Shown: piece after piece, positions 5,611 to 30,468 of the stretch
Layout: each line of letters opens with the position of its first letter
Numbering within the stretch: the first letter of the stretch is position 1
IMG/VR virus record: IMGVR_UViG_3300035698_015109
Span: 1-32,110 of that record
From: a virus
Strand: one strand, 5' to 3'
DNA: 32,110 bases
Position numbers and translations under genes: made by a program
Notes under the pieces: model-generated
Database searches by the model: none
What the model saw: the letters and a program-made list of their open reading frames with translations, nothing else
What the model was told of the DNA's origin: nothing

Positions 5611-5617
5611 GGGGACT

Positions 5618-5625
5618 AGATTACA
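5618..5625 (-). promoter_or_regulatory. -10-like box (TGTAATCT) seven bases before an SD-less start
   Basis: TAATCT (5623-5618) lies seven bases before the ATG at 5610 and overlaps the TAA stop of the preceding gene. No SD is present. It fits the TANNNT leaderless pattern seen at six other starts, but the TG directly abuts the box rather than standing one base away, so this is a weaker member. Confidence 0.45.
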
Positions 5626-6748
5626 CCGAGGGCGTGATGAGGTCTGCGCGGGTTCGGATGATTTGCCCCGACGTGGGCACGATGTCGCCTGTCGGGACGG
5701 CCACTGCGTCGTCGAGGACGATGACGCCCGAGACGGAGCGGGCCGACGTGTAGATGAGCGATTGTTCGAGCGTGACACCAGGAGCAAGCGAGTTGACCTG
5801 GGCGATGATCGTCGAGCGCACGGAGTCGAAGGCCGCGGCCGAATCGGTCCCCGTCTTGTAGCGGAGCAGGAGCTCGATCGACTGGTAGAACGGGACGGAG
5901 CCGAAGACGTCCACCCAAATACCACCGCCCCGATACTCTCCGAGAGCGAGCACAACAGCCGCGTTTAGGAGCGCGTTCGACTGTCCGTTCGCGTCGGCGA
6001 CGTAGAGAAACACGAACCCATTCGGGAGTCCGTCTGTCCCAAGTTGCTCCTCGGCGGTGGCTTGGGTGATGCCGGGGACCGTGCGAGCGCCGAACTCGAT
6101 CGCGGCGAGGATGGCTCTCCGAGCTTGCGCGTAAAATAGACGGACACGAGCCCGAAAGCTCTCGTCCGACTCCGTGAAGTCGCCACCAGCCGCCACGTCG
6201 GGGTTCGTGACGAGGATCGATGAGTCGGTCGGAACGTCGATGAATCCCGTGATGGTTCCCGCCGCGACGTTGCCTGCTGTTCCCGCCTCGACAGCCTGAG
6301 CCGCGACGGTGAAGGGGCCAAGGTCAGCAGCGCCGAAGGCCACGATGGCGAGCGTCTCGAATCGAACGCCCGTCGTGCTTTCGAGCACGTTCCCTGATGC
6401 GTAGTTGATGGCCCCGGCTGCGGAGCTTGGGCGTGTGAACTGGAGCGTCACGCGGGATGGAGACGCGGTCTTGCGGACGATGCTGGTCGAGTACCTGTCG
6501 GAGACCCAGCGGTCGAGCGCGAGCCCGCTGGCGCCATCGAGGGTGAGGTCGCTCACGGCCTTTCCAGCCGCCCGCGAAACCTCTTCGCACATTGCTGCGG
6601 CCCCAGCTCCGATCATATTTATGTCCGAGCCGGGGGTGTAGACCTCCTCGGGCGTAAGCCGGTCCCCAACGTCGCGAAGCTCGGCGCGAAGCAAGAGCTC
6701 GTGAGCGAAGACTTCAAAGAGCTGGGGGCGCGTCAGCAGGGCTGTCAT
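5621..6748 (-). CDS. Baseplate J-like wedge protein
   Basis: A 375-residue protein, the usual length of Mu gp47/P2 J-type baseplate proteins, which form the wedge that links central hub and fibres. The typical order is visible. A helical N-terminus is followed by the GxxLDRWVSDRY region (about 75-86) and a beta domain with GNVLESTTGVRFET. The AGTAGNVAAGTITGF motif (about 154-168) follows, then TNPDVAAGGDFTESDESFRARVR (broken as TNPDVAAGG / DFTESDESFRAR), where J proteins have their conserved ESDE.lR.R. The start has a strong SD (GAGGAG, TAGCA, ATG) and sits two bases after the stop of the Ig-gp25 gene. Family assignment is firm. Confidence 0.88.
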   Translation of the reverse strand: MTALLTRPQLFEVFAHELLLRAELRDVGDRLTPEEVYTPGSDINMIGAGAAAMCEEVSRAAGKAVSDLTLDGASGLALDRWVSDRYSTSIVRKTASPSRVTLQFTRPSSAAGAINYASGNVLESTTGVRFETLAIVAFGAADLGPFTVAAQAVEAGTAGNVAAGTITGFIDVPTDSSILVTNPDVAAGGDFTESDESFRARVRLFYAQARRAILAAIEFGARTVPGITQATAEEQLGTDGLPNGFVFLYVADANGQSNALLNAAVVLALGEYRGGGIWVDVFGSVPFYQSIELLLRYKTGTDSAAAFDSVRSTIIAQVNSLAPGVTLEQSLIYTSARSVSGVIVLDDAVAVPTGDIVPTSGQIIRTRADLITPSV

Positions 6749-6750
6749 TG

Positions 6751-9600
6751 CTACTCCTCACCGTAGGCGTGCTCGAGCGCGAACGAGCCGAAGGCGTCGC
6801 CGACTTTCAGCTTGATGACCGTCATACCGGGGAGCGGCGTCGAGACAACGGCGCGAACCGAAATCACGTCGGGTTCCTCTGAAATTTGAGATTCGATGTC
6901 GTTCTGGAGTTGACGGAGCTGGGTCGCTCGAATCAGGGTCTTGTCGGCGATCTTGAGGCCGTAGTTGGGGAGGTGCATCATCGAGCCCTTGGGGGTCGAC
7001 AGGCGGCGATAGATGCGCTTGCGGAGGTACTGTCTGCGGGTTTCGACGTCGAGGTCGCCCGTGTCGGAATAGACGAACGTGCCGAGTTCTTTCCCGTCAC
7101 TATCGCGCGGGGTCTGCGGGTTTCGGATGTCCCATCGATTCGCGCTGATTCGTTCGAGCGGGATCGTGTCAGCCCCAGCCCCGAAGGCGACGATCGTGAT
7201 CGAGGTTGGAGCAATGATCATCGGGTTCACTGAGGCGATGTTGCTCAAGTCAAGCTGGTACTGCTCGCCCCGAACCAGCGGCCCGTCGAACCACACCCGA
7301 AGCGTGTTGTCCCCGATGTAGGTCACGACCAGGAGCCGGCGTTCAACGAAGGGCGCTACCGGTCCGGTCAGGACGTAGTTGGCGAGGTTCGTCCCGTCGT
7401 GATCGGCCATTGGGTCGAGGTGCTGCGGCTCGCGGTCAAAGACGATGTCAATCGTGGTCAGCGTCGACTGGCGGCTATCTGCCGTCGAGACGACCATTGC
7501 GCCGACGGTGAAGCCCCAAGAGAGCGAAGTTGTAGAGGCTGCTCCGTCTGTGACGTAGGCGTCAACCTGCCACGCTCCAGGAGCGAACAGAGGGTGAGCG
7601 TTGATGGTCACTGCGAATCCGTTGACGGCGTTGGCAACGATCGTTCCGCTGTATCCAGGTTGGAAAACCCCGTTCACAATGACCGCTGTTACAACGAACA
7701 ACGGGTCGACGAAATCGACATCAATTAGGGCCTGAATGACCTGGACATCGTCCGAGCAGTCAAATGAGATATCGACAGCGCCGTCTTCGTTCGCTCCAGT
7801 CGGAAGATTGTTTGAAATGACCGGAGGAGCGTCGACAACCCACGCCCAAATATCGGCCCCGCTGGCCGTAGCGGCATCTTCGCAGTATGCCCAAGCCGAC
7901 CACGACCCGAAGGCCATGGGCGCCGGCAGCGTGGTGATCGCGACGTCGAAGCCGTTCGATGCGTTCGCGACGATCGTCCCGTTGAAGCCAGCCTGGAAAA
8001 CGCCGTTGATGATCGCGTCGGTGACGGCGAGTGCCGGGTCCGTCAGTTTGCAATCAATCGATATTTGGATGACCTGGATATCGTCCGTGGTTGTGAACGT
8101 GATCGGCGCCGACTGGTTCGCTGTCGACACCAGAGGAGCTGTCCCGGTGAGCACTGGAGGGGTGACAACCGTCCACCCCCAGGTGTCTGTCCCGCTCACC
8201 CCGTAGATGTCGTCGCAGTCTGCTGTTGCGCTCCAAACACCGACAGCCATTGACGGGTGAGTCAGGAGGGTAACGTCGAACCCGTTGGTCGCATTCGCTA
8301 CGATGGTTCCCGTGTACCCAGGTTGGAAAATACCGTTGATGATCGCATTGGTGACGGCTAGCGCTGGGTCTGTGAGGTCGAGGCTTATCGTTGCAGAGTC
8401 GACGTTGTCATCATCTGTCGTCGTGAATGTGACCGTCGCGATCGGAACAACCATTACGCCGACCGGGAGCAGCCCTGTCACGACAGGAGCCGCGTTGACT
8501 ACTGTCCAGCCCCATGTGTCATTTCCGCTGATTCCGTAAATATCTTCGCAGTAGGCGTAGGCGCTCCAAACTCCAGCGGCCATGAATGGGTGCGTCGAAA
8601 TTGTCACGTCGAACCCGTTGGTCGCATTCGCTACGATGGTTCCGGAGTATCCAGGTTGGAATGCTCCGTTGATGACTGCGTGATGGACCGCCAACGCGGG
8701 GTCAGTGAGAGCGCAGTCGATCGTCGCCTCCGTGACCTGGTCGTCATCTGTGGTCGTGAATACGATCCAGTCCGCTGGGTCGACAGCAACACCGACAGGA
8801 GCAGTCCCTGTTACGACCGGGGCAGCGTTGACTACTGTCCACCCCCATGTGTCATTTCCGGACGCTGCTACCCCATCCTCGGCGTAAGCGTAGGCACTCC
8901 ACACACCGGCTGCCATGGGTGGATGCGTTGAGATCGTGACGTCGAATCCGTTCGAGCCATTGGCGACGATCGTCCCGTTATAGCCAGCCTGAAAGACTCC
9001 GTTGATGATGGCGTCAACCACGGCGAGGGCTGGGTCTGTCAGCGCGCAGTCGATGGTTGCTTCGGTGACTTGCGTGTCATCTGTTGTCGTGAACGTGATG
9101 GGGTCAGCAGGGTCTACAGCGACGCCAACTGGAGCCGTCCCGGTGACTACTGGCGCAACGTTGGCGACGCAGATCGCGAAGATGACTTCGATATCAACAT
9201 TCGCGGTGTTGTTCGACGCTGCAATGTCGAGGAGCCCAGCGGCGTCGGTAAAGATCTCGAGAATGCCAGCCTGCGTCGAAGTGATAGCACACTGGTTACA
9301 GCCGCCAACGGCGTCGGCTGAATCAGCCGTTGTTCCACCGCCATGAGGCTGGACTTTTACGATGACATCAGCGTCTGCTGTGATCTTGAGCTGGACGAAG
9401 AAATCACCAACCCCGATGGTCCCAGTCGGGTCAAGTGTCTGCCACGTTTCAGCGGCTGTCAGGTTTCCTGAAAACTCGACAGAGTCGTAGATAGTGAGCC
9501 CGTCATCGGTTGCGGCATTGACCTCTAGTACGGTGGTTTTCGTGCTCACGCCGCTACCGTAAAGCTCTGCACCGTACAAAAATGATCCATATATTGCCAT
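6751..9600 (-). CDS. Giant Ig-repeat tail protein fused to a gp25-like baseplate wedge domain
   Basis: A 949-residue protein with SD GGAG and ATG at 9600. Order: an N-terminal beta domain (1-146, starting MAIYGSFLYGAELYG); five Ig/cadherin-like repeats of about 110 residues (roughly 147-256, 257-366, 367-476, 477-585, 586-695); a linking beta domain (about 700-850); and a C-terminal gp25/W-like domain (about 855-945). Each repeat carries FTTTDD.QV, LTDPALAV, INGVFQ.GY.GTIVAN, NGFDVTI and W.W.V in order; repeat 5 is most diverged. The last domain has the wedge hallmarks RIYRRLSTPKGSMMHLPNYGL and a helical QLRQLQNDIESQI. gp25 is normally a separate protein of about 100-140 residues; here it immediately precedes the J genes, as usual, but carries a surface adhesin-like arm. 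Confidence 0.8.
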   Translation of the reverse strand: MAIYGSFLYGAELYGSGVSTKTTVLEVNAATDDGLTIYDSVEFSGNLTAAETWQTLDPTGTIGVGDFFVQLKITADADVIVKVQPHGGGTTADSADAVGGCNQCAITSTQAGILEIFTDAAGLLDIAASNNTANVDIEVIFAICVANVAPVVTGTAPVGVAVDPADPITFTTTDDTQVTEATIDCALTDPALAVVDAIINGVFQAGYNGTIVANGSNGFDVTISTHPPMAAGVWSAYAYAEDGVAASGNDTWGWTVVNAAPVVTGTAPVGVAVDPADWIVFTTTDDDQVTEATIDCALTDPALAVHHAVINGAFQPGYSGTIVANATNGFDVTISTHPFMAAGVWSAYAYCEDIYGISGNDTWGWTVVNAAPVVTGLLPVGVMVVPIATVTFTTTDDDNVDSATISLDLTDPALAVTNAIINGIFQPGYTGTIVANATNGFDVTLLTHPSMAVGVWSATADCDDIYGVSGTDTWGWTVVTPPVLTGTAPLVSTANQSAPITFTTTDDIQVIQISIDCKLTDPALAVTDAIINGVFQAGFNGTIVANASNGFDVAITTLPAPMAFGSWSAWAYCEDAATASGADIWAWVVDAPPVISNNLPTGANEDGAVDISFDCSDDVQVIQALIDVDFVDPLFVVTAVIVNGVFQPGYSGTIVANAVNGFAVTINAHPLFAPGAWQVDAYVTDGAASTTSLSWGFTVGAMVVSTADSRQSTLTTIDIVFDREPQHLDPMADHDGTNLANYVLTGPVAPFVERRLLVVTYIGDNTLRVWFDGPLVRGEQYQLDLSNIASVNPMIIAPTSITIVAFGAGADTIPLERISANRWDIRNPQTPRDSDGKELGTFVYSDTGDLDVETRRQYLRKRIYRRLSTPKGSMMHLPNYGLKIADKTLIRATQLRQLQNDIESQISEEPDVISVRAVVSTPLPGMTVIKLKVGDAFGSFALEHAYGEE

Positions 9601-9627
9601 GCCTTCACTCCGACTTCAGGAGCACCT

Positions 9628-9915
9628 TCAGAGTCGCTTGAACTCCATCGTTGAAAGGTCGAGCTGGACCTTGTTTACGTCCAGACCGAGCCCCTTGGCG
9701 ACGTCGCTGGCCCGCTCGTTGAATCGCTTTTTTGCCTCGACCATCGCCGCTACGATTGGCTGCTCAATCTCGAGTGCTTCCAACCTGGCCTGGCCGAGGT
9801 GGGCTGACTTTCCCATGTAGTCGCTGTGGGCTTGGCGAATGAACACTTGAAGGTCAGCGGGCACCATCAGGTCATCCGTGCTCTTCGCTTTTTTACTCGT
9901 CTTCTTGCTCGCCAT
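9628..9915 (-). CDS. Small helical protein of unknown function
   Basis: A 95-residue protein with a Lys-rich N-terminus (ASKKTSKKAKS) and a mostly helical body with a long amphipathic stretch (about 35-75). It has a strong SD (AAGGAGAGG) before ATG at 9915, so it is almost certainly translated. It lies between the tail fibre and the Ig-gp25 gene. A tail-fibre assembly factor or small baseplate component would fit its place, but no family is recognised. Confidence 0.7.
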   Translation of the reverse strand: MASKKTSKKAKSTDDLMVPADLQVFIRQAHSDYMGKSAHLGQARLEALEIEQPIVAAMVEAKKRFNERASDVAKGLGLDVNKVQLDLSTMEFKRL

Positions 9916-9947
9916 ATTCTATTTCCTCTCCTTGTCCGTCGGTTCTA

Positions 9948-11880: not shown

Positions 11881-14340
11881 CTACGTGATCCCAATTAGGA
11901 GTGATTCGGTTCCAGTTTTTGCGAGAGCCGATGAGCACGTCGAGAGCGAGCCAAAGTTGGCTGTCGCGTCGCTTGTGGCGTGGCCGGTGCCGAGGAAGTG
12001 CGTCGAGTCGTCGTCGGTTATCGCCCGTCCGTTGTTGTCAGTGGCCTCGAAGTCAGAGACGAGAATAGGTGCGTCATCTGCCACGATCTCCCAAGCGCCA
12101 GCGGCCTGGAGTGTCCCGTCGTAGTCGCCACTGACAACGGTGCCTCCAACGTTGATCGACATGCGACCTCCAGCCGCCCATTGGAGCCGGATGGTAGCTG
12201 GTGTCCCGTCGACTGGAGCGACTCCGCTGTCGAGCGTTGTCGTCCCGTCAATGTCGCATTGCCATGTCCCTGTTGTGACGTGGAGGGTCGGTGAACCAGC
12301 CCCAGTGTGTTGCAGGATTTCGACAGTTCCAGCGTCGGTTCCGCCCCAGCCGTCTGGGGTAACGGTCAGCGTAACAGATCCTTCGAGGTTGACGGGTGTC
12401 TCGTCTGTTGTCAGGACGTCCGCTGCTCTGGTAGCAGTCGCCGCTGTGGCCCAGTTTGGGATGGGGCTGGTCGCGACGTCGCCAAGTTCGAGCTGGGCTG
12501 CAACGAAATAAACAACGCAGTCATCTTCGATTTTGACACAGAATTGCGAGTCAGTATCTGGGGGTGTTTGGTCTCGCGCTATTGTCCGTGCATAGCTGCT
12601 CCCAGGCCCCAGAGTAACAGCGTTGGAGTATGTCGACGCTGATACATCCCATAAGCCGATATAAGCAGCCCCTGCACCGGAAAATTGTCTTGATATCACA
12701 GACAACGAATGAGCAGAGGTTGATCCAGTTGTTGCCCCGCCATACACGTATTGAGTCGAGCCCGTGGCATTTATTATGACCAATGCTCCAGGCCCGAACG
12801 CTTGAAAACCACCAGCCGTGAGTGCTACGGCGTCGTCTCCATATGTGAAAGTCCCGCCTGTCGCTGTCCAGCCAGTCGTTATAGAGTTATTGATATTATT
12901 ATAAACCAGATTCGTCCGCGCCGGCTCAACCCTTAGACCATCTGAATCACCACCCCGAGGCAAACCACTTGTTGCGATCTCCCATATATCGTCATGGTCC
13001 AACCATGACGCCATCGACGCCCGCGAGTATGCTCCTATCGTTCCAGTATCAGGGGTTGTCCCGCAAAAGTCAGAAGTGAATCGTTTGACCAGCGCAGCAG
13101 AAGACGCAAGCCAAGTATCAGCGATCCCAGCACCATAATAGATACCAGTTGCAGCGCACTTCGTTCCATCTGGTACGATGAGCGCACCGAATCGAGAACC
13201 CAAAGAGACCCCGCCTCCTGGGTAAATATTCCCAGCCGGGGACGCCACTGGAGCAGCGGCAATATTATTTGTGTAGAGATGAGTGTTACCATCAAGGTCT
13301 ACTATCCCAATGATGACGATCCACCCAGACTCTATAGCTAACGTCGCAGGGGATGCGGTTGCACCAGCTACGTCACGAACGTAAAGGGATAAACTACCAC
13401 TTGAAGCCCTATAAAGTTGAAACCCAGCGGCTGCGTTCCGTGTCGCAATTTCTACGTTCGCACCAGCGCCTTGAGCACCGAGCCTGCCAATCCAAAAAAC
13501 AACAATGTCCTCGCCGCTTGCAGGGTCGTTCGCTGTTGCGGTGCTTCGATAGGCTGACCCGTCATATTCTTCTGCGGTAACGTCAGCTCCACCAGACAAC
13601 TCCCATGGGGTCGACTGTCCAGTCGTTGGCGCCCCGGTAGCAGATAGCGCGGTACCAATCGACGGTGTATTCCCGTCGCCATCGATCCACAGAAAATCTG
13701 GAGTGCCATAAGTGCCAGTTAGGGCGCCTCCTGCGTCTAACCCAGCGACATCTACAACGTAATCCATCGGCAGATCGTAGGATGTCACCTCGTCGTCAAC
13801 GTCGCGTGTCCGCAGACCGATTTCATTCAGCTTCGTTGTCACGAAGTCGTTTGCCATCTGGGCCTGCATGATGACGAGTTTGTTCGTCAGGTTTGCCGGG
13901 ACGTCGTCCTGGCAAACCGGGCTATCGTTCTCGATTAGGCCACCCTCGGCGGTCGAAGTGTGGGTGTAAATTGTTCGAGAGTACTCGCCGTCAAGCCCGT
14001 CGACGTATCCCTCAACGTAGACCTCAATCGTTGCGGCGGCTGTTGCGTACCATGAGACTGTGCCCGTGGCCGAAGAGAGTACCCTGATGTAGCCCTCGGC
14101 AGTCGTGGCCAGAACGAGAGATTGCGCTTTTGAGACGCCATCAGTACCGACCTGGATGATGGTCACAGTCTCAGTGTTCGCCCCAGCGTTGACGACACGG
14201 AAGGCGATGAACGAGATATCCGCAACCGGGACACCCGTTGCTGCCGCGCCCGTGTCTACGGTGCAATCAAGAGCCGCCGCTACCGTCGGCGCAACGCCGT
14301 CAAAGACCTTGTTATTCGCGGTCAGTCTGTTCCAGCCCAT
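11881..14340 (-). CDS. Large lectin-like (LamG/carbohydrate-binding) tail protein
   Basis: An 819-residue protein. The start at 14340 has no SD but TGGTAGACT ends seven bases upstream. Domain order by eye: an N-terminal virion-attachment-type beta domain (1-150); a helical NKLVIMQAQMANDFVTTKLNEI segment (split here: NKLVIMQAQMAND then FVTTKLNEI, 153-174); a first concanavalin/LamG-like sandwich (about 215-425) with IVVFWIGRL, GFQLYRASSGSLSLYV and GWIVIIGIVD; a carbohydrate-binding-type domain (about 465-640) with RVEPARTNLV and the AAQLELGDVATSPIPNW...ATRAAD ending; and a second LamG-like sandwich (about 645-790). The QLELG...ATRAAD motif is common in phage tail proteins that bind glycans. 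It sits between spike and tail fibre, so a side-fibre or receptor-binding role is likely. Confidence 0.75.
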   Translation of the reverse strand: MGWNRLTANNKVFDGVAPTVAAALDCTVDTGAAATGVPVADISFIAFRVVNAGANTETVTIIQVGTDGVSKAQSLVLATTAEGYIRVLSSATGTVSWYATAAATIEVYVEGYVDGLDGEYSRTIYTHTSTAEGGLIENDSPVCQDDVPANLTNKLVIMQAQMANDFVTTKLNEIGLRTRDVDDEVTSYDLPMDYVVDVAGLDAGGALTGTYGTPDFLWIDGDGNTPSIGTALSATGAPTTGQSTPWELSGGADVTAEEYDGSAYRSTATANDPASGEDIVVFWIGRLGAQGAGANVEIATRNAAAGFQLYRASSGSLSLYVRDVAGATASPATLAIESGWIVIIGIVDLDGNTHLYTNNIAAAPVASPAGNIYPGGGVSLGSRFGALIVPDGTKCAATGIYYGAGIADTWLASSAALVKRFTSDFCGTTPDTGTIGAYSRASMASWLDHDDIWEIATSGLPRGGDSDGLRVEPARTNLVYNNINNSITTGWTATGGTFTYGDDAVALTAGGFQAFGPGALVIINATGSTQYVYGGATTGSTSAHSLSVISRQFSGAGAAYIGLWDVSASTYSNAVTLGPGSSYARTIARDQTPPDTDSQFCVKIEDDCVVYFVAAQLELGDVATSPIPNWATAATATRAADVLTTDETPVNLEGSVTLTVTPDGWGGTDAGTVEILQHTGAGSPTLHVTTGTWQCDIDGTTTLDSGVAPVDGTPATIRLQWAAGGRMSINVGGTVVSGDYDGTLQAAGAWEIVADDAPILVSDFEATDNNGRAITDDDSTHFLGTGHATSDATANFGSLSTCSSALAKTGTESLLIGIT

Positions 14341-14347
14341 AGGCCGA

Positions 14348-14356
14348 AGTCTACCA
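14348..14356 (-). promoter_or_regulatory. Extended -10-like motif TGGTAGACT before an SD-less start
   Basis: TAGACT ends seven bases before the ATG at 14340, with TG one base upstream. No SD lies between it and the start. It matches the TGNTANNNT start-proximal motif shared by other SD-less genes here and would yield a nearly leaderless transcript. Confidence 0.55.
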
Positions 14357-16896: not shown

Positions 16897-17966
16897 GCAT
16901 CACCGCCCGTCCCAGCGTTGGCCCGTCGAGGGATGAAAACGAACGTCCCAACAGGCTGCACGGAGCCGGTGAGTCCGTTCGCATCGGCGATGAGTTGCCA
17001 TGAATCGGCATCTCCGTACCAGCGCATAGCCACGTTGCGGAGTGTCTCCCATTGGCCCACCTTGTCGGTGCCGATGAACGGCTCGATCACGCGGGCTCGG
17101 ATTGACTCGCGGGCTTCAACAGCGGCGACGGCGAGGTCGATGGCGTCGGAGGTGACGTCACCGACCCATGTCTCGGCGCCCAAGACGTATCCAACGTCGT
17201 CGGTCGCGATGAGGTCCTCGATCGACGAATCGCTCAGGAGTTGGCGAAGCTCGGCGACGTTGGCGGCGATCGTCTCGGCCTCCGACGAGATGCCCCGGTA
17301 TTGAGCCAGCGTTACCTGGGGGGTGCCATAAATCAGGTTCATCGACGAAATCATCGTCGAATTGGCCAAACGAATCGCCTCCTCGACAACGAACAACGGC
17401 GCGGTGATATTCGGCAGAATGTAGGGCGGACGCTGCGCCAACGATGCGTCGAGCTCGGCCATTCCCTTCCGTAGTTGGCTTTCCTTCGTCGGGGCCTGAG
17501 CGATGCGCGGAGCGACGCGCTGGCCCCGTTGAGCCCACACGAAATTGCAGGACCATTCGATGTCTTCGACGCGAAGATAGGTCGGAGTGAATTCGGCGAG
17601 TACGCCGCGCCGAACCTCTGGACCCCAGGACACCTCGAGGAGGTTCCCGCCGTCCATGAGCCTGTGAAACACCTTCGCGAGGATCTCTGCCGTGATGGCA
17701 TCACCGGGTCCGGCTAGGTCGTCAAACCCGGCAATGAGCGCCATATCTGCGATGTAACGGGTTTTCCAAACGCCGTTCAGCGGGGTGTCTTTCATCGACG
17801 GCCCGAGCATTTGGATCGTGGCCACGGGGTTGCCCGGATAGACCCGTTTGACGTGCTTCGCCTCCCCGCCGAAGGGAACGGGGCGATAGGGGAGGGCGCG
17901 GTCCTGGAGTTCGACAACGCGCCGAGAACCAGTCAATTCGGTGATTGTGAGGGCCTCAGCGGTCAT
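16893..17966 (-). CDS. LysM-containing tail/baseplate protein
   Basis: A 357-residue protein. ATG at 17966 has no SD, but TACACT lies exactly six bases upstream. The N-terminal region is beta-rich, with ATIQMLGPSMKDTPLNGVWK and an EVSWGPEVRRGVLAEFTPTY motif (about 111-130) typical of tail proteins of this position. A central helical part (160-250) follows. The C-terminus (about 307-346) is a LysM module (ETLRNVAMRWYGDADSWQLI, then ANGL, then PVGTFVFIPRR). Contractile-tail phages commonly encode such a LysM protein just after the tape measure, where it joins tube to hub (gp53/contractile injection system Afp7-like function). Confidence 0.78.
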   Translation of the reverse strand: MTAEALTITELTGSRRVVELQDRALPYRPVPFGGEAKHVKRVYPGNPVATIQMLGPSMKDTPLNGVWKTRYIADMALIAGFDDLAGPGDAITAEILAKVFHRLMDGGNLLEVSWGPEVRRGVLAEFTPTYLRVEDIEWSCNFVWAQRGQRVAPRIAQAPTKESQLRKGMAELDASLAQRPPYILPNITAPLFVVEEAIRLANSTMISSMNLIYGTPQVTLAQYRGISSEAETIAANVAELRQLLSDSSIEDLIATDDVGYVLGAETWVGDVTSDAIDLAVAAVEARESIRARVIEPFIGTDKVGQWETLRNVAMRWYGDADSWQLIADANGLTGSVQPVGTFVFIPRRANAGTGGDA

Positions 17967-17972: not shown

Positions 17973-17981
17973 AGTGTATCA
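17973..17981 (-). promoter_or_regulatory. Extended -10-like motif TGATACACT before an SD-less start
   Basis: TACACT ends exactly six bases before the ATG at 17966 and has TG one base upstream. No SD is present, and no good -35 lies 17 bases further up. It fits the leaderless-start pattern of this genome. Confidence 0.6.
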
Positions 17982-20377: not shown

Positions 20378-20386
20378 ATTGTATCA
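20378..20386 (-). promoter_or_regulatory. Extended -10-like motif TGATACAAT before the tape measure gene
   Basis: TACAAT (one change from TATAAT) ends exactly six bases before the ATG at 20371; the TGA of the extended motif doubles as the stop codon of the chaperone fusion. No SD is present. It is the best -10 match in the leaderless set. Confidence 0.65.
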
Positions 20387-21678: not shown

Positions 21679-23871
21679 CTAGGCTTCGGTGATGACGACG
21701 ACGCCTTCGCCAATTTCAGTGTCAAAAACCATCGTATCCATCGAATTGAGCATCCGAACTTTCACTTGGCGAACCGAGATTCCCTGCGCGGAAAGCTCGG
21801 GGTTTTCTGCGGTGGTATTGACCATCGAGTAGCCCGCAATCCGCTGGGCTGTCGGTGCTCCAACGCTCAAGAGCCCGCTGAGGAACGATTCATCGGCAGC
21901 GTCGAGGGCTGCTTCCCGGTCGTCTGTGGCGAGCTTCTTGGAGTAGGGAAGGCCGATCTCCGCGAGGCTGTCCTGGATGAAGTCGGCCATCTTGCGCCGT
22001 TTCTGGGTCGTGCGGCCTGGTGTGAGATCGCTCGTGACCTCCGACTGGTAGATCGGCGTCCCACTCCGGTCGACGCGCGGAGAGCAGATCCCAGCGGCCT
22101 TCAGCGCGATGTAGAGCGCCATGTTGAGCGTCTCGGTCGTGACCTCGAGGCCGTTGACGAAGGTCAAGAGCCGGGTGTCCTGGCCGGGGTTCTCCTCGGG
22201 ATTCAACACCGAGTTGATGTAGGCGAGAGGGCCGTCACCGCCGATGGTGATTTCACCGTCAGCGGTAAATCCTGTCCCGCCAGCGGTGCCGATTTCGGCG
22301 ATCTCCGAGACGGTAATTCTCCAACCGAGCCAGCTGTAGAAAACCCGATCGTGTCGCCAGTTGACGACGTCCGCGATGGCCTGCGCGCTCGTTGCGCCGA
22401 GGGATGCCCGAGCGTAGAAGCGGCGTCCGAGGTTCCCCTCGTCGCTTGCTGTGATGGCGTTCTGTCGACCGACACGAATCACGGTCTCGCTCCGTCGAGC
22501 GCTGACCGACTGGCTCACATCCTGGCTATCCGCCTGGGGGTCCAGCGTCGCGGCGAAGGCCGTGGTGTACGCCGAGTCAATCTGCGCTTCGGTCAGCGCC
22601 ACAGCGAGGTTCGCTGGATTGGTCACGGTGACCATTCGAGCGGACGGGGTGTCGACCAGCGTGGTCACTGTCCCGCCGACTGCCCCGCCCCCGCTTCCAT
22701 CGTCGGTCTGGTCGCGGACTTCGACGTCGATCGTTCCCTCGTTCGGCGCGGCAACGGTGCCGACAGGGATCGAGAGGGTCCGCATCGTGACCCAGGTGTC
22801 TCCGCCAGCGTTCCGGCAGCGAGTCCCAGCGGCGACGGTAAAGGCCTCGCCGACGTTGCCCGTGATGGTCGTCGCGACGGCGAATCCCATGTCGGTTGCC
22901 ATCGTTCCGGCGACATCGAGCATGGAGATTGTCCCGGCGCTCGAGCCCGTGCGATAGACGATGACTTCTTGAGTTGCGGCGTCGACGACTGCCACACCGT
23001 TGATGGCGGTGACGGCTGCGGCGTTGATGAGGTTCGCGGCCTCGGCTGCGGTCACGGCTGCGGCATTGGCGACGAGCCCGCCGCCCGCCGTGGTCGCGAC
23101 CGCGTGGCCGATTTGGGCCAGCGTCCCGGCGTCCACGTCGCGGAGCGTGATCGAGCCGCCAGTACCAATCTGGATACCGCTGAGGTCGACCTGGGCGCCG
23201 TTCACGACCGCGCAGGTGTATCCCATGAATCCGTTGATTCGCAGGGCAATGGCGGCAACGAGTTGATCAGCGGCCTGGAACGTGATGATGACTTCGGGGA
23301 GCGCGTCAACCTGGATGCCGATTCGCTCACCACCAGCAAAGAGCGTCGGCGAAACGAAACCGCCACCAGCGACCGACGAGACCGTGGCAGTCAAAGCCGT
23401 GGAGACGGCGGGGCCACCCGTGTCGGTCGTGACGCTGAGTTGGTCGGCCGCGGCCATGGCGAAGGGTCCGGGGTCGCTTCGGAGAGCAGCCGCGAGGGTG
23501 AACCGAACGTCACCGACGCTGGTGTCGACGCGGCAGATGACCTTTCGCGCTGGACGAAGGTGCTTACCTTTTAGGAACCCGTTGCCGTTCCAGATCTCGG
23601 CGAGGTGCAGCCGAGCGCAGGGATCTTGATATTTCAGCGCGCCCCGGTCGTAGCCGAACCCACCGAAGAGGGCTTTTTCTGAGTTCGCCCCATAGACCTC
23701 GGTCGGGGTGTTGAAATCGCCGTCCTCGAATTCGCCCACGATCATCATGGCCCCGGTTCCAACGCCCGTAACGGGGGTGGAGGGGTCGCGATCGATCAGC
23801 GCGAGTTGCTCGATTTCGGTCAAGGTTTCGAGCGAAGGCATGGCCCGATATCGTCGAACGTAAGCTGACAT
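21679..23871 (-). CDS. Tail sheath protein with inserted beta modules
   Basis: A 730-residue contractile sheath protein, longer than T4 gp18 (659) and far longer than simple sheaths (about 350-490). The N-terminus begins with SAYVRRYRAMPSLE and an early VTGVGTGAMMIVGEFEDGDFNTPTEV (broken: VTGVGTGAMMIVGEF / EDGDFNTPTEV), the usual sheath opening. Residues about 183-335 hold two tandem modules with IGIQVDALPEVIITF, INGFMGY and GTGGSITLRDVDAGT, then LINAAAVTAINGVAV and SAGTISMLDVAGTMATDMGF. Another beta domain follows (340-470). The C-terminal 260 residues form the conserved core (PLAYINSVLNPEENPGQDTR; LLTFVNGLEVTTETLNMALY; MADFIQDSLAEIGLPYSKKL). The SD (GGAG) is eight bases before ATG. Confidence 0.9.
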   Translation of the reverse strand: MSAYVRRYRAMPSLETLTEIEQLALIDRDPSTPVTGVGTGAMMIVGEFEDGDFNTPTEVYGANSEKALFGGFGYDRGALKYQDPCARLHLAEIWNGNGFLKGKHLRPARKVICRVDTSVGDVRFTLAAALRSDPGPFAMAAADQLSVTTDTGGPAVSTALTATVSSVAGGGFVSPTLFAGGERIGIQVDALPEVIITFQAADQLVAAIALRINGFMGYTCAVVNGAQVDLSGIQIGTGGSITLRDVDAGTLAQIGHAVATTAGGGLVANAAAVTAAEAANLINAAAVTAINGVAVVDAATQEVIVYRTGSSAGTISMLDVAGTMATDMGFAVATTITGNVGEAFTVAAGTRCRNAGGDTWVTMRTLSIPVGTVAAPNEGTIDVEVRDQTDDGSGGGAVGGTVTTLVDTPSARMVTVTNPANLAVALTEAQIDSAYTTAFAATLDPQADSQDVSQSVSARRSETVIRVGRQNAITASDEGNLGRRFYARASLGATSAQAIADVVNWRHDRVFYSWLGWRITVSEIAEIGTAGGTGFTADGEITIGGDGPLAYINSVLNPEENPGQDTRLLTFVNGLEVTTETLNMALYIALKAAGICSPRVDRSGTPIYQSEVTSDLTPGRTTQKRRKMADFIQDSLAEIGLPYSKKLATDDREAALDAADESFLSGLLSVGAPTAQRIAGYSMVNTTAENPELSAQGISVRQVKVRMLNSMDTMVFDTEIGEGVVVITEA

Positions 23872-24578: not shown

Positions 24579-24581
24579 TTG

Positions 24582-25067
24582 CTACCTCGAAATCTGCTCG
24601 AGTTCATGGCGGATTTCTTTTTCGATGTGCTCCCCGTCGACCAATTCCTGGAGAGCTCTTGCCATGAAGTGCCGGGGGGCGATGCCCTCTTTTGAGATCT
24701 TTATGGCGATGCTCATCGCTATCCTTTTCGCCTCTTTTGGGCTGTCGGCGAACCCCTTCTGCTGAGCCCAGTCGATGAGGGGGGCCAGTGGCGGGAAATG
24801 CGGCCTCGTCCCGTATTCCATAAATGGGGCGTGGGGAGCGGTCATCGCCACGATCGCCCCGGTCGTCGTAGGGGTCGTCTGGTGCGAGTTGATGAGCACG
24901 GAGTTGTTGATCGGTGGATAGGGCTTTGTGTCTTTGATGGCGTCGGGGATCATGCCTTCGAGCTTGTATGCCGCGCTTTTCAGCCCACGAATTACCGCTT
25001 TTTCAACTTTCTTTGGGAGCATCTCGATGATGTCGGCGAGTTGGTCAATGTCGACGTTGATCGCCAT
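24582..25067 (-). CDS. HK97 gp10-like / tail completion protein
   Basis: A 161-residue protein with the hallmarks of the gp10-like/virion morphogenesis family. An N-terminal helix (LADIIEMLPKKVEKAVIRGL) leads to AAYKLEGMIPDAIKD, then the middle HAPFMEYGTRPHFPPLAPLIDW, given as HAPFMEYGT and RPHFPPLAPLIDW (about 79-101), and the late IAPRHFMARALQEL (about 129-142). The conserved Y-G-T-R-P-H-F-P-P pattern is diagnostic. ATG at 25067 follows the previous stop with one base between (TGAG ATG). It joins head and tail at the neck. Confidence 0.85.
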   Translation of the reverse strand: MAINVDIDQLADIIEMLPKKVEKAVIRGLKSAAYKLEGMIPDAIKDTKPYPPINNSVLINSHQTTPTTTGAIVAMTAPHAPFMEYGTRPHFPPLAPLIDWAQQKGFADSPKEAKRIAMSIAIKISKEGIAPRHFMARALQELVDGEHIEKEIRHELEQISR

Positions 25068-25068
25068 C

Positions 25069-25650: not shown

Positions 25651-26054
25651 CAGGAGTTGACCACTCGCGCGTTGCGCCCACCAGCGGCGACGTCATGCCC
25701 GAAGGGGTTGAAGTACCCGCCGAGGTCGTCGGAGAGCCGACCAGCCCAGTAGGTCATCTCTTTTCGAAGCATCACGATTTCATCTTCGTTCATGGTCAGA
25801 TCGCCGACTTTTTTGGCCTTGAACCGGCCGCGAGCGTCCGAAATCTGATTCTCAATACAGCGGAGTTCCTGGAGGTCGCGGCGAAGGAGCTCGAGGCCTT
25901 GCTCGGTGATCCGGTTGAAGGCGTCACGGACCAAAAACTCTGGCTGTGACGTCGAAGGGAACCCGAGCTGGAACGACGAGGCAACGCTATCCCAATTCGT
26001 GTAGCCGAGATATCGGAGGGCCTCAGCTTGCTCTTTTTCGGTCAATGCCGCCAT
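25650..26054 (-). CDS. Probable head-tail connector (adaptor-like) protein
   Basis: A 134-residue mostly helical protein. ATG at 26054 has no SD; TATTCT lies exactly six bases upstream. It begins ALTEKEQAEALRYLGYTNWD, and long helices follow (RDAFNRITEQGLELLRRDLQ, then EDEIVMLRKEMTYWAGRLSD). The start with an acidic helix and LGY is seen in adaptor proteins that bind the portal. It is the first gene after the small accessory proteins and the first of the neck group. The assignment is by layout, not by a clear motif. Confidence 0.5.
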   Translation of the reverse strand: MAALTEKEQAEALRYLGYTNWDSVASSFQLGFPSTSQPEFLVRDAFNRITEQGLELLRRDLQELRCIENQISDARGRFKAKKVGDLTMNEDEIVMLRKEMTYWAGRLSDDLGGYFNPFGHDVAAGGRNARVVNS

Positions 26055-26060
26055 GGGGCG

Positions 26061-26069
26061 AGAATAGCA
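26061..26069 (-). promoter_or_regulatory. Extended -10-like motif TGCTATTCT before an SD-less start
   Basis: TATTCT ends exactly six bases before the ATG at 26054; no SD is present. A 12-base identity (CGTGCTATTCTC) is shared with the motif upstream of the gene at 30453, although the two genes are unrelated, which argues that the motif itself is selected. Confidence 0.65.
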
Positions 26070-26084
26070 CGCGGGTGAGAGGGG

Positions 26085-26297
26085 CTACTTCATCCCTTTG
26101 AGCCGGCCGCGGAGCTTCAAGAGCCTCGCTCGGCGCCCCTTTCGCATCGTCGGACCCTTGCCAGGCTTCCGGCCTTTTCGAGCAACGCGGCGCGCTGAGG
26201 AACGGGCAATCGCTGCCGACTGTCGAAGGGGACGGCCCGCTTTCTGCTCGGTCGCGGCCTTGGCGAACTTTCGCGCAAACCCTTTTTTCAGCGCCAT
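26085..26297 (-). CDS. Very basic small protein, possibly DNA-binding
   Basis: A 70-residue protein with 26 Lys/Arg and a single acidic residue (Glu17). ATG at 26297 follows the previous TAG with no base between, and has SD GGAGGA four bases upstream. The C-terminal half is histone/protamine-like (ARSSARRVARKGRKPGKG; MRKGRRARLLKLRGRL). It may bind packaged DNA or act as an ejected head-internal protein. The plus strand is also open here, but that lacks an SD and fits as the shadow. Confidence 0.7.
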   Translation of the reverse strand: MALKKGFARKFAKAATEQKAGRPLRQSAAIARSSARRVARKGRKPGKGPTMRKGRRARLLKLRGRLKGMK

Positions 26298-26717
26298 CTA
26301 GTCCTCCAGGATCGGCACGAGCACGCCGCCCGAGCGCTTGACGTTCGTGATGTCGTACTGGTTTTCAGCGATGATTTTGCCCGCGAGGCAACGGCGCGGG
26401 AGGCCGTTGACGACGAGGCTGATGTCGTTCGTGAGGCGGTAGCGCTTCGGCTCCTTCGGCGGGGGGCCGGTGACCGGCTTCGGCTCGGGCTTCACGGGCT
26501 CGGGCTCTGACGCGATCTTCACGGGTTTGCCGTCGGGAGCGGGCTCGATGTCGTCGGGCATATCGCCGAAGTCGGAGGGGTCGGCGTTGACGGCGGCATC
26601 GTCGGCGGCCAGAGCGTCGGCGAGCTCGGATTTCCGCATCCCGCTGGCACCAGAAATCCCGCGAGCGCGAGCTTCGCGTTTGAGCCTGGTGATCGTCTCA
26701 TTGGTGTAGTCGGTCAT
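26298..26717 (-). CDS. Small accessory head protein with SAP/Rho-N-like N-terminus
   Basis: A 139-residue protein. ATG at 26717 has no SD; TATGCT lies exactly six bases upstream. Residues about 6-35 (ITRLKREARARGISGASGMR, then KSELADAL) form a SAP/Rho N-terminal-like helix-turn-helix common in small phage head proteins near the capsid gene. Residues 40-90 are acidic then Pro/Lys/Glu-rich. The C-terminus (90-139) is a short beta unit (ISLVVNGLPRRCLAGKIIAE). It follows the capsid gene by about 50 bases. Role in head assembly or DNA contact is inference. Confidence 0.65.
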   Translation of the reverse strand: MTDYTNETITRLKREARARGISGASGMRKSELADALAADDAAVNADPSDFGDMPDDIEPAPDGKPVKIASEPEPVKPEPKPVTGPPPKEPKRYRLTNDISLVVNGLPRRCLAGKIIAENQYDITNVKRSGGVLVPILED

Positions 26718-26723
26718 GCCGCG

Positions 26724-26732
26724 AGCATAACA
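26724..26732 (-). promoter_or_regulatory. Extended -10-like motif TGTTATGCT before an SD-less start
   Basis: TATGCT ends exactly six bases before the ATG at 26717, with TG one base upstream and no SD. It lies in the 49-base gap after the capsid gene, where it could give separate expression of the genes that follow. Confidence 0.6.
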
Positions 26733-26766
26733 GACGAGGTTTTAGTCGGGAGAAGAGGAGAACGAA

Positions 26767-28149
26767 CTAGCTGATGGCGTGCTCGATGACGATGGCGCGG
26801 GCGAAGCGGTCGCCCGTGGTCGACTGGTCGCTGGGAACCGCGAAGCCACCGGACCAAGACCATGCGTTAGAGACGACTTGCTGGAGGCGATCCAGCGGGG
26901 CGCGCATGGTGAAACGGACGCGGGCGGTGTCGACGAAAACGCCGTTGTTCATCACCGAGAAGTTGCCGACTTTGCCGGTCGCGCCGGCTTCGGTCATGTA
27001 GTCCGCCTCGGGGATGTAGCACTCCATGAGGCTCGACTCGCCCGTAATGATCGTGCGACCGATGTGGACGCCCGCATTGTTCGTGACCTCAGCGCCGATC
27101 GAGGAGACGACCTCGGAAGCGCCAGCACCGGAGCTGATCAGCGTCCCGGTGTTGCGGAAGTCGGGGCTCTCCGAATTGCGGAAATGGAGGCACTCGGCTT
27201 GCTGACCGATCACGAGCTTGCGGTAGGCCAAGCTGTCGGGGAGCGACTCGTGGAGACGCTGCCAAGCGTTGTCCGAGAAGACCTGAGCGACAGCCTTCGG
27301 GCCGAGGTGATGATGGAAATTCCCGTCCCCGTGGGTCGGGATGTTGTTGTCGTTCAAGATCGCCACCGCGTTGATGATGTCCTGAAGGGTTAGCACGTCG
27401 GCAGCGCCGATCGCGTCGACCGAGGTCCCGCCGCCGACCCGATAGATCTCGGGAGCAGTCGAGGCCAGGATCGGCTGACGAGCCGCACAACCCACGGTCA
27501 GGGCTGCGGAGATGGTCAGCGTACCGGGGCCGAATGGAGCGGCTGCGGCGTCGGGGACAGCCGCGACGACGAGGCGGTCAGGCTCGGCGATGCCGGGGAA
27601 CGAGATCGTGATTGGTGCCGCTGCCGACACCGCGGTCACGACGCCGTTGAGGAGACGATCGTTGAACCCGTTCATCGAGGCAACGTGCATCGTGAAGGCA
27701 CCGATCGCGGCGACGGCGGTGCAGGCGGTCTGCCCACCGGAATATGCGCGGAACAGCGGGTCACGGGCAAGACGGTTCATGGTCTGCCCAGCATTCAAGC
27801 CGAGCTTTTTGACGTCCTGTATGAGCTTGGAGGCCAACGCCGCGCGGCTGCTCGGCATGTGGGTGTCGACGGCCTTACCGTACTGGTTCGCGGTCACGCT
27901 CCATTGCTCGAGGCCATAGGTCTCGGGCGTGGGGTCCGTGCCGGGAACGAGCGGGGCTGTGTCGACGGTCAGGAGGCCCGTGCGGGTCATCACCTTGGTC
28001 TCGCCCTCGTGGGCATCCCAGATCTCGGGCATCGCGTCGGCCCGATAGAGGAGGCCGGGGAACAGCGCGTCGTGGAAAACCTTCTGGAGGGTGTTGTCCT
28101 GGATGATTGCAGCGATTTCAGGGCTGAGTCCACCGAGAGATACGGCCAT
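26767..28149 (-). CDS. Major capsid protein
   Basis: A 460-residue protein, directly after the scaffold gene, with a strong SD (AAGGAAGGA, seven bases, ATG). It forms the icosahedral shell and most likely has the HK97 fold. The N-terminal helix (EIAAIIQDNTLQKVFHDALF) and the early TRTGLL...LEQWSVTANQYGKAVDTHM part (as LEQWSVTANQYG, KAVDTHM) fit the capsid N-arm and E-loop. A helical LASKLIQDVKKLGLNAGQTM (spine-like) follows. A middle Ala/Val-rich beta insertion (about 155-245) is followed by DVLTLQDIINAVAILNDNNI and the domain with GDGNFHHHLGPKAVAQVF. Near the end, GVHIGRTIITGESSLMECYI and VRFTMRAPLDRLQQVVSNAW are typical of the P-loop region. Confidence 0.85.
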   Translation of the reverse strand: MAVSLGGLSPEIAAIIQDNTLQKVFHDALFPGLLYRADAMPEIWDAHEGETKVMTRTGLLTVDTAPLVPGTDPTPETYGLEQWSVTANQYGKAVDTHMPSSRAALASKLIQDVKKLGLNAGQTMNRLARDPLFRAYSGGQTACTAVAAIGAFTMHVASMNGFNDRLLNGVVTAVSAAAPITISFPGIAEPDRLVVAAVPDAAAAPFGPGTLTISAALTVGCAARQPILASTAPEIYRVGGGTSVDAIGAADVLTLQDIINAVAILNDNNIPTHGDGNFHHHLGPKAVAQVFSDNAWQRLHESLPDSLAYRKLVIGQQAECLHFRNSESPDFRNTGTLISSGAGASEVVSSIGAEVTNNAGVHIGRTIITGESSLMECYIPEADYMTEAGATGKVGNFSVMNNGVFVDTARVRFTMRAPLDRLQQVVSNAWSWSGGFAVPSDQSTTGDRFARAIVIEHAIS

Positions 28150-28229
28150 GGTTCGATCCTTCCTTGTTGAGTACCCGAGGAAAGTTGAACCCGTTCGACC
28201 GTTGCCGCCGTCGTCGCGTGGGTGGGTGT

Positions 28230-28255
28230 TCTTCCCGCTTTCGAGAAGATTACCA
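28230..28255 (-). promoter_or_regulatory. Possible capsid promoter (TGGTAATCT) and 5' hairpin
   Basis: In the 120-base gap before the capsid gene, TGGTAATCT (28255-28247) is an extended -10-like motif. It overlaps the start of TCTTCTCG-AAAG-CGGGAAGA (28249-28230), an eight-pair stem with one G-U pair. A transcript begun here would have a leader of about 95 bases. There is no -35 match 17 bases upstream, and the motif is common enough to occur by chance. Confidence 0.35.
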
Positions 28256-28269
28256 CAAGGGCTGGGGTG

Positions 28270-28992
28270 CTAGTGGCGAGCGCCGAGCTTGGCCATGCGG
28301 GCCTCGAACTCCTCGGGCGTGGCTGTCATCGCGTCAAAGGGCTTGTCGCCGTCGTTCGGCTTGGGGTCAGGACCGCTCTTCGGATCAGCGGTCTGAGCTG
28401 GCTTGGCTTTCGGGTCAGCGGCGATCCCGAGGGCCACCCGTTCGACGGGGTCTGCCAGGAGGTCGTCGAGGAGCTTCACCTCGTCGAGCTCGGCGTCAGC
28501 GTCGGGGAGCAAGGACAGCGCTTGCTCAATCTTGAAAAACGCATAATCCGAGTTTTTGATCCCGCGCTCGGCGAGGAGTCCCGAAACGTGAGCCTCAATC
28601 CGCGATGCCTCCGCGGCTTCCTCGGCTGCGGTGACCTTCAACTCCGCAGCCGCCGTCAACTCCGCTTGAGCCGCCAAGTCTGTCTTGGCTTGCTCAAGCT
28701 CGGTCATCTCGGCTCGCTTGGCCTCCTCGGCCTCCTGAGCCCTCTTTGCCGCGTCAGCCTGGAATGTCTTGAGCGCTTCGGGGCTCTCGAACCCGTGCTC
28801 CTTCAGCGCGTTCGCCACGGCTGCTCGGCGAGCTTGTTCGAGCCGCTTTTCGAATGCGTCCTTGGGCATCGAAATCGTCGTCTCGACTGCCGGGTCCGTG
28901 GGCGGTACTGCCGGCGCTGGTACTGCCGGCGCTGGGGGCTCGGGCGCTCCTGTGGCGGCCGGGTCAACCGGGGGTGTCAGGTCTACTGTCAT
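28270..28992 (-). CDS. Capsid scaffolding protein
   Basis: A 240-residue protein directly upstream of the capsid gene, with SD AGGAGAGGA and ATG at 28992. The N-terminus (1-40) is Pro/Ala-rich and disordered; it includes a short duplicated unit (PAPAV twice, 15-base DNA repeat near 28904-28934). A long coiled-coil follows (about 45-135), with KDAFEKRLEQARRAAVANAL and dense Ala/Glu/Lys. Then come SRIEAHVSGLLAERGIKNSD and FKIEQALSLLPDADAELDEV, and a Pro/Lys/Asp linker before the basic C-terminus (EEFEARMAKLGARH), where scaffolds bind the capsid protein. No protease motif is present. Confidence 0.82.
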   Translation of the reverse strand: MTVDLTPPVDPAATGAPEPPAPAVPAPAVPPTDPAVETTISMPKDAFEKRLEQARRAAVANALKEHGFESPEALKTFQADAAKRAQEAEEAKRAEMTELEQAKTDLAAQAELTAAAELKVTAAEEAAEASRIEAHVSGLLAERGIKNSDYAFFKIEQALSLLPDADAELDEVKLLDDLLADPVERVALGIAADPKAKPAQTADPKSGPDPKPNDGDKPFDAMTATPEEFEARMAKLGARH

Positions 28993-29034
28993 GGCGTGGT
29001 CCTCTCCTGGTGTTTGGGGGCGATGGGGGGCGAC

Positions 29035-29697
29035 CTAGGAAACTTCGAAGGCCGCAGCCAAACGAGCGCCGATGCCGTCTTGAGCGGTTCCGACACCCGG
29101 GAAGGCGTAGTAACTGACTTCGGCGGTGCAGATGAAGCCAGCCTCAGCCGCGACGAAGTTGATGCCGAGGCCGTCGGTGGTGACCGAGCAGTCAGCCCCG
29201 GCGAGAGCTCCGGTGAGCGTCCCGCGGTAGTTGATGGCCTTCACGCCAGCGGTGGCGGCGGGGGCGATGAGCGTCGCGCTGACGATCTGGACAGCCTGCT
29301 TCGCGCCGAGGAACGTCCCGATGCCACCAGCGGTGACGGGGATGGTCTCGGTGACGAGGACGCCCTCGATGGGGACGAAAACCACGTCGCAAGCGGTGAC
29401 GGCGTCAGCCGCGGCGAACTCGATCCCGCCGTTCTCGTCGACGGCGCACTCACCCGCGTTGGGGACGGTCTCCGATTCCACGACGTCCATCCAGCCGGTC
29501 ACGCCGCCCGCGGTCGCCCAGCAATAAGAGATCGCCTTGGCAGGACGGGACGCGGTCGCGATGTGAGTCGCGGCGACGGCAAGGTGCTCGCTTCGGGGGA
29601 GCATCTCGAGGGCTTGGCCCATGAGGAGCAGGCGGTTGAGATCCGCGATGTTGACGGGATTCGCCTTGTCGAGCTCTGCTTTGATGGTAGATGCCAT
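29035..29697 (-). CDS. Beta-rich structural protein, possible capsid decoration
   Basis: A 220-residue protein, upstream of the scaffold gene, with SD AAGGAG nine bases before ATG. Residues 1-35 are helical (IADLNRLLLMGQALEML). The remainder seems to be a duplicated beta unit: IEFAAADAVTACDVVFVP (about 91-108) resembles INFVAAEAGFICTAEVSYYA (about 184-203). Each follows a Gly-Ala..Cys-x-Val strand and is spaced about 90 residues apart. Place in the head cluster and composition suggest a head decoration or cement protein; it could also be a minor virion protein. No family is recognised. Confidence 0.6.
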   Translation of the reverse strand: MASTIKAELDKANPVNIADLNRLLLMGQALEMLPRSEHLAVAATHIATASRPAKAISYCWATAGGVTGWMDVVESETVPNAGECAVDENGGIEFAAADAVTACDVVFVPIEGVLVTETIPVTAGGIGTFLGAKQAVQIVSATLIAPAATAGVKAINYRGTLTGALAGADCSVTTDGLGINFVAAEAGFICTAEVSYYAFPGVGTAQDGIGARLAAAFEVS

Positions 29698-29721
29698 TTT
29701 CTGATTCTCCTTGTCGCCCTG

Positions 29722-30453
29722 TTAAGAGCGGCCGCCTGCAACGACGTCTACCGTCGCCGATCCACTGACTTGAGCCTTCGTCGGGGCTTGTGACCCCGTG
29801 TTCGGGAATTCTGAGAGATAGAGACCGTTGACGGCGATGTCCTGGCCCTGAGCGTCCACCGACGTCGGGGACGAGCCAGAGTCGAGGCCGAGGGTTGCCG
29901 CGCCGGTTCCTGTGATGGTGATCACGCCGAGCGTTCCATCGACCCCGGTGGCGATTCCGTCGATCCGAAGTTGGCCCGAGACCACTGTCGCTCTCGGGGT
30001 TGCGATCCCGGCGAGCGCGAAGGCCGCGTTGATGCGAGCCGCACATTGGGCGGCGGTCTGGTCGGCAATGAGGAACGTCGTAGTGGTCGTGACACCGTCG
30101 AGGACGACGATGAGCGTCTCTGCCCCGGCGAAGGCCGTCGGGAACGTGCCCGAGACGGCCTGAGTTGAGGCCGGGACGGCATAGAGTCGGAGTTGAATAT
30201 CCGCGCTCGACCGGAGATAGAGCAGCGTGATTTCGGAGAGCTCGTCGAGGCAGTCGACGTCCTCGAAAGCGGCTCCAACGGCCCCGGCTGTCGCGACCGT
30301 GAACTGGCTGGTGATGACGGCGTCAACGAATTTCGAGCAGGATTGAACCTCGCTCGGGCCGAGAACGAGCGAGCGGAGCGTTTGCCCTGAAGCCGTCGCG
30401 CAGGCGTCCGACCTCACCATGAGCGTCCCTTGGGTCTCGATCGTCTTCGCCAT
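29722..30453 (-). CDS. Beta-rich structural protein with a module shared with the sheath
   Basis: A 243-residue protein. ATG at 30453 has no SD; TATTCT lies exactly six bases upstream. Residues about 110-193 form a module (ETLIVVLDGVTTTTTFLIAD; TAAQCAARINAAF; ATVVSGQLRIDGIATGVDGT; ITITGTGAATLGLDSG) of the type inserted in sheath and other phage surface proteins. The sheath in this window carries related modules. The N-terminal part (1-100) has ITLLYLRSSADIQLRLYAVP. It sits between a small unknown and the decoration-like gene. A head or neck surface protein is likely; the exact role is unknown. Confidence 0.6.
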   Translation of the reverse strand: MAKTIETQGTLMVRSDACATASGQTLRSLVLGPSEVQSCSKFVDAVITSQFTVATAGAVGAAFEDVDCLDELSEITLLYLRSSADIQLRLYAVPASTQAVSGTFPTAFAGAETLIVVLDGVTTTTTFLIADQTAAQCAARINAAFALAGIATPRATVVSGQLRIDGIATGVDGTLGVITITGTGAATLGLDSGSSPTSVDAQGQDIAVNGLYLSEFPNTGSQAPTKAQVSGSATVDVVAGGRS

Positions 30454-30459
30454 GTCGGG

Positions 30460-30468
30460 AGAATAGCA
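30460..30468 (-). promoter_or_regulatory. Extended -10-like motif TGCTATTCT before an SD-less start
   Basis: TATTCT ends exactly six bases before the ATG at 30453, with TG one base upstream, and no SD. It is part of the 12-base CGTGCTATTCTC identity with the site before the gene at 26054. Confidence 0.65.

Follow-up and report, generated by a model that had tools for sequence, protein, structure and literature searches.

In the Thermus phage phiYS40 the middle and late mRNAs are mostly leaderless (reviewed in PMC3594737). The middle and late promoters of a second Thermus phage, P23-45, are placed in an extended -10 class that is less -35-dependent and tied to remodelling by gp39 (PMC7403470). 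In the mycobacteriophage Corndog (Cluster O), leaderless SigA promoters have been predicted (PMC4351075). In bacteria, TA-like signals about 12 bp before gene starts have been interpreted as marks of leaderless genes (PMC3160421).

Here we analyze IMGVR_UViG_3300035698_015109 (32,110 nt, the whole of which is referred to as the window), which belongs to a family of contractile-tailed phages. We consider it highly likely that six boxes on its minus strand are extended -10 promoters giving leaderless mRNAs from virion-module genes. Thus, six virion-module genes would very probably each have their own promoter, so near to the gene that the mRNA would begin at the start codon.

Candidate promoters at gene starts

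The first-pass annotation listed seven starts lacking a Shine-Dalgarno (SD) sequence but with a -10 hexamer (TANNNT) close to the ATG, and its coordinates, distances and hexamers are all correct as written. The hexamer ends 6 bases before the ATG at five starts and 7 bases before it at 14340 and 5610 (Table 1). It is preceded by TGN, giving the extended form TGNTANNNT, at six of the seven sites (the exception is 5610). A canonical SD is absent at all seven starts, as had been claimed; the SD-like GGTGAT at 17966 itself lies within the -10 region.

There are five copies of TGNTANNNT-N6-ATG on the coding (minus) strand, each at a gene start, compared with a mean of 0.057 and a maximum of 1 in 1000 dinucleotide shuffles. 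It occurs 0 times on the plus strand of the window and 0 times in a reversed-pattern control. If either N6 or N7 is allowed, six copies are observed (shuffle mean 0.12, maximum 2). A comparison with random ATGs, which the annotation had suggested as a check, finds the enrichment confined to gene starts: the extended form at N6 or N7 precedes 6 of the 31 gene starts but none of the 336 remaining coding-strand ATGs (Fisher p=2e-7), and plain TANNNT precedes 7 of 31 and 3 of 336, respectively (p=2e-6). All six extended boxes are intergenic, in gaps of 21-188 nt, whereas most other genes in the window overlap or are separated by gaps of at most 12 nt (p=0.003 versus the boxed genes). Because they lie in gaps of at least 21 nt, the six boxes are not forced by protein coding.

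Three other matches were set aside. At 5610, the TA of TAATCT is part of the stop codon (TAA) of the preceding gene, TGN is missing, and the ortholog in the related genome G003 is without the motif; this site is a weak candidate and probably not a promoter. The copy of TGGTAGACT at 4319 (window 4311-4319) is coding sequence (protein end LVDSVP). The same TGGTAGACT at G003:21275, which is counted among the sites in relatives, is also a coding coincidence (protein end LVDSVP), by accident 7 bases before an ATG.

Two further features of the window were noted. The contig end (window 1-190) is a simple repeat encoding PEPEPE or VTVPVP in its reading frames, and may represent an assembly stop. The adjacent genes at 932-1384 and 1381-1821 are a tandem duplication, with both products starting with MIGNIRSGVRAFDDG.

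Table 1. Boxes, genes and hairpin copies in the window and in related loci (G and L numbers denote relatives; N6 and N7 give the distance from box to start codon).
Feature	Position	Strand	Remarks
Extended -10 box TGCTATTCT	30460..30468	(-)	6 bases before ATG 30453; N7 in G001 and G003 orthologs
Predicted leaderless gene, 243 aa	29722..30453	(-)	Virion/head module, possible head decoration; no family match
Extended -10 box TGTTATGCT	26724..26732	(-)	6 bases before ATG 26717, gene after capsid gene; kept in G001 (N6) and G002/G003 (N7)
Predicted leaderless gene, 139 aa	26298..26717	(-)	Weak Rho_N-like N terminus, E 7.6e-5, just below Pfam cut-off
Extended -10 box TGCTATTCT	26061..26069	(-)	6 bases before ATG 26054; kept in G001 and G003 (N6), before GTG in L021
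Predicted leaderless gene, 134 aa	25650..26054	(-)	Connector position; first of closely spaced run down to sheath
Extended -10 box TGATACAAT	20378..20386	(-)	6 bases before ATG 20371; kept in G002/G003 (N6), positional counterpart in G001
Predicted leaderless tape measure gene, 738 aa	18155..20371	(-)	PHROG 167 tail length tape measure, E 3.6e-10
Extended -10 box TGATACACT	17973..17981	(-)	6 bases before ATG 17966; N7 forms in G003, L024, L043
Predicted leaderless gene, 357 aa	16893..17966	(-)	C terminus resembles LysM by eye; overlapping genes 16896 and 15139 follow
Extended -10 box TGGTAGACT	14348..14356	(-)	7 bases before ATG 14340; 819 aa product, no homolog among relatives
Weak candidate TAATCT	5618..5623	(-)	7 bases before ATG 5610; overlaps preceding stop codon, no TGN, not conserved
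TGGTAATCT, probable leadered capsid promoter	28247..28255	(-)	About 106 nt before major capsid ATG 28149
Sheath gene	21679-23871		Protein used as probe for related loci
Second hairpin copies	L043:2308-2377, L030:2213-2280		Covariance model
Weak second hairpin copies (E 0.1-0.6)	L028:3191-3259, L012:293-361, L026:4678-4743, L011:187-257		Covariance model

We predict that each of the six boxes would be read by the main sigma factor of the host without a -35 element, that transcription would begin at the A of the ATG to give an mRNA without a leader, and that the ribosome would initiate at the 5' AUG. The boxed gene and the genes behind it would both be made from this mRNA, the latter via SDs or stop-start overlaps. 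We infer the start at the ATG from position and conservation, and infer also the sigma factor used, the route of translation and the timing. As the boxed genes lack an SD, they would be expected to be poorly translated from read-through mRNA.

The suggestion that the boxes split the late operon into modules is partly supported. A true gap precedes each of the six genes, several of which are the first of a coupled or overlapping run (26054-25650-25067-24578-23871 and 17966-16896-15139), and the genes downstream of boxed genes overlap, abut or carry SDs. Sigma-70 scans at the module borders found nothing convincing. However, terminator scans also found no convincing terminator there, so read-through between modules is likely. 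Each box probably heads a coupled gene group, not a separately terminated unit.

Related loci and exchange with SD-led starts

Using the sheath protein as a probe we identified 28 related viral loci, and then 45 with an alignment, all of them metagenomic and 30-62% identical; the capsid protein as probe of viral contigs (pattern method) found no relatives. The distance from TGNTANNNT to the ATG in the first 28 loci is N6 at 21 sites and N7 at 17, with 0-5 sites at other distances and 0 at N6 or N7 on the opposite strand (these counts include near-duplicate records, e.g., L007/L008, L010/L014 and L017/L018). The density of sites is very uneven among relatives, and G011 has none. Extra sites in relatives stand in front of genes for the portal (Pfam SPP1_portal), a small-terminase-like protein, the tape measure and other virion proteins. 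Those in G001 are in the packaging and virion part, and the presumed early part shows none.

After de-duplication, the window and all records together provide 54 sites with the consensus TGnTAnnCT, in which TGN is the search criterion itself and C occupies the fifth hexamer base (-8) in 74%. The base before the ATG (-1) is C in about 83% (81-84%) of these non-redundant sites, followed by A at +1, and an SD is almost entirely absent from them. C at -1 is found at 15 of 18 motif-led and 142 of 313 motif-free starts (p=0.003). A pyrimidine at -1 with a purine at +1 is the usual preference for initiation, thus the C(-1)A(+1) pattern supports a transcription start at the A of the ATG. Upstream of the box no position in the 54 sites exceeds 0.34 bit, and so there is no -35 consensus. 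A sigma-70 scan also detected no -35/-10 pair at the window sites.

Orthologs in the two nearest relatives, G001 and G003, were located via protein homology, independently of the motif. Those found for 30453, 26717, 26054, 20371 and 17966 all have the extended box at a distance of 6 or 7. In these two relatives the motif is kept at 8 of 9 orthologs of motif-led genes (including 5610) and at 1 of 24 for the remaining genes (p=6e-6, with linked starts and the few starts from two overlapping loci treated as independent). In distant relatives the same genes are usually SD-led; for example, 24 of 35 members of the 26054 family have an SD and 4 of 35 the extended box. An SD is present at 1 of 18 motif-led and 207 of 313 motif-free starts (p=3e-7), and the two signals exclude each other at starts. 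The original proposal of leaderless internal promoters is well supported, on sequence-based grounds, for six sites (position, strand, conservation at orthologs, lack of an SD and C(-1)A(+1)) and probably does not apply to 5610.

The capsid gene is SD-led in 35 of 35 cases. Its leader (window 28150-28269) contains a hairpin at 28170-28238 (minus strand), upstream of the capsid ATG at 28149, with the consensus ACGCg-aC-NNC-GGCGG-naAC-GNN-G. The stem covaries in 20 relatives (GAC/GTC, GCC/GGC, ACC/GGT, TGC/GCA and UCU/AGA pairs) around the loop GGCGG, with ACGC just ahead. Pairing is found in 98.8% of cells, and covariation is 0.508 compared with 0.121 in shuffles, 0 of 500 of which reach it; an outer stem is not supported. 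A covariance model (R1) identified the hairpin before the capsid gene in further distant relatives left out of model building. In several relatives the model also finds another copy close to the scaffold gene start, some 0.9-1.3 kb upstream of the one at the capsid gene. No Rfam match was found in the window. The hairpin may regulate capsid synthesis from the leader. Boxes like TGGTAATCT lie 106-124 nt (or 108-124 nt) upstream of the capsid gene in L017/L018, L019, L021, L022, L029 and L030, and TGGTAATCT, ahead of the hairpin, is a probable leadered capsid promoter, in contrast to the predicted leaderless ones.

The host question

The boxes had initially been taken as a clue to a host in the Actinomycetota or Deinococcota, which is not supported by the few replicons compared, all of them plasmids. 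The extended box is not above control on Rhodococcus pRHL1 (1.12 Mb; 8 vs 15 in the control), where plain TANNNT is enriched at 6-7. Deinococcus is barely sampled (3 vs 1 on plasmids only), and the Thermus plasmid pTT27 is also a small sample, of one plasmid only (5 vs 0). The actinobacterial marker WhiB, a supporting mark and not a strict requirement, occurs in 0 of 30 records of the phage family.

The form is strong in a delta-proteobacterial genome. A scan of GTDB contigs with the sheath alignment gave only one match, in a metagenome-assembled genome (MAG G029) labelled uncultured delta proteobacterium, which also holds a second related contig. When 318 genomes of the same class were searched with greater sensitivity, one further strong relative emerged. 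In the DNA of G029 itself the extended box lies 6-7 bases before an ATG 105 times, compared with 7 in the reversed control, and TGNTANNNT-N7-ATG occurs 75 times genome-wide (2 in the control). Of 59 genomes of the class, most have the N7 form more often than the control. Extended -10 leaderless starts thus appear, from their motif counts, to be common in this class; Zheng et al. (2011, PMC3160421) had listed leaderless genes for 8 of 33 delta-proteobacterial genomes, with an average share of 15.8%.

The phage contig in MAG G029 has no extended box, and no 16S gene was found in the MAG. Phage contigs in MAGs are often wrongly binned. Base -8 is C at 19 of 21 close phage sites, versus 10 of 30 N6 sites of G029. 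Sheath and hub proteins have no match among isolated phages, and these comparisons, including those of the capsid (33% identity to Streptomyces phage Kromp, 29% to Komagataeibacter phages) and terminase (about 25% to Bacillus and Streptomyces phages), allow no inference of host. We conclude that the motif indicates neither Actinomycetota nor Deinococcota, nor which bacterium the phage infects.

Alternative readings and described systems

One tentative alternative, which we consider possible, is that a phage factor remodels the host RNA polymerase by removing the contacts of sigma region 4, leaving extended -10 promoters as the only ones active late, as in the gp39 logic of P23-45. The leaderless layout would be unchanged, and the promoters would form a late class. 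This would be consistent with the lack of a -35 consensus (TGN itself being the search criterion), with the restriction of G001 sites to packaging and virion genes, and with the lesser effect of gp39 on the extended -10 middle and late promoters of P23-45 (PMC7403470). However, no such factor was found in the phage, and in genomes of the G029 class the extended form stands before ATGs with no phage involved. A wider scenario, which we regard as unlikely, is that the virion operon is a chain of -35-independent leaderless modules jointly switched by a phage factor that makes -35 promoters invisible to the host RNA polymerase; only the capsid gene would be kept on a structured leader, and orthologs would have moved between leaderless and SD-led initiation in evolution.

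It is improbable that the box sets a transcription start that leaves a very short leader of 1-5 nt, and hence an mRNA that is not strictly leaderless. The alternation of the spacing between 6 and 7 would fit such a leader, but initiation at the A of the ATG would account for the preference for C(-1)A(+1) and for the sharp 6-7 limit, and 1-5 nt is too short for any SD. It is very improbable that the box is a processing or protein-binding site resembling a -10, as its fixed T-A-T positions, TGN and fixed distance to the ATG are those of a -10 and it takes the place of an SD in orthologous genes. In a GC-rich genome such boxes might also arise by chance or through coding constraint. This is likely for 5610, where a stop codon gives the TA, and is the case for 4319 and G003:21275, but it is refuted for the six intergenic sites by the spacing peak, the shuffle and ATG counts and the ortholog test.

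We looked for the same spacing in described phages, using a simple scan. The first 50 kb of phiYS40 has no 6-7 peak, although its AT-richness could hide one, and the first 50 kb of P23-45 lacks the extended box 6-7 bases ahead of ATGs. Nor is there a clear peak in Mx8, phiKX1, lambda or Kromp, thus these six phages provide no positive control. Nothing closer was found in the literature on leaderless late phage operons.

The predicted leaderless modules can be compared with each of the described systems. In phiYS40 the leaderless middle and late transcripts were mapped, whereas here the boxes lie at virion genes that would be leaderless and may be late; phiYS40 is AT-rich and has a Thermus host, and no sequence relation was seen. 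The boxes are of the extended -10 class, as in P23-45, but no gp39-type factor was found. Corndog differs in having few promoters, predicted with a -35, and an Actinomycetota host, whereas here there is a series along one virion operon. A bacterial parallel is in TA-led leaderless genes, with TANNNT about 12 bp before the start and no SD (Zheng et al., 2011, PMC3160421), although those have plain TANNNT in high-GC groups, and here six of seven sites have TGN and C is strongly preferred at -8.

Such boxes allow true gene starts and transcription modules of uncultured phages to be located from sequence alone. They also offer a natural series, with one and the same virion gene predicted to be leaderless in a given phage and led by an SD in a related one. 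A warning follows against naming a host from leaderless boxes, as the extended form is frequent across a delta-proteobacterial class but not on the actinobacterial replicon tested. Leaderless late phage mRNAs were already known; what is added here is a conserved series of predicted ones in a phage family without a cultured member, and the exchange of leaderless and SD-led starts at orthologous genes.
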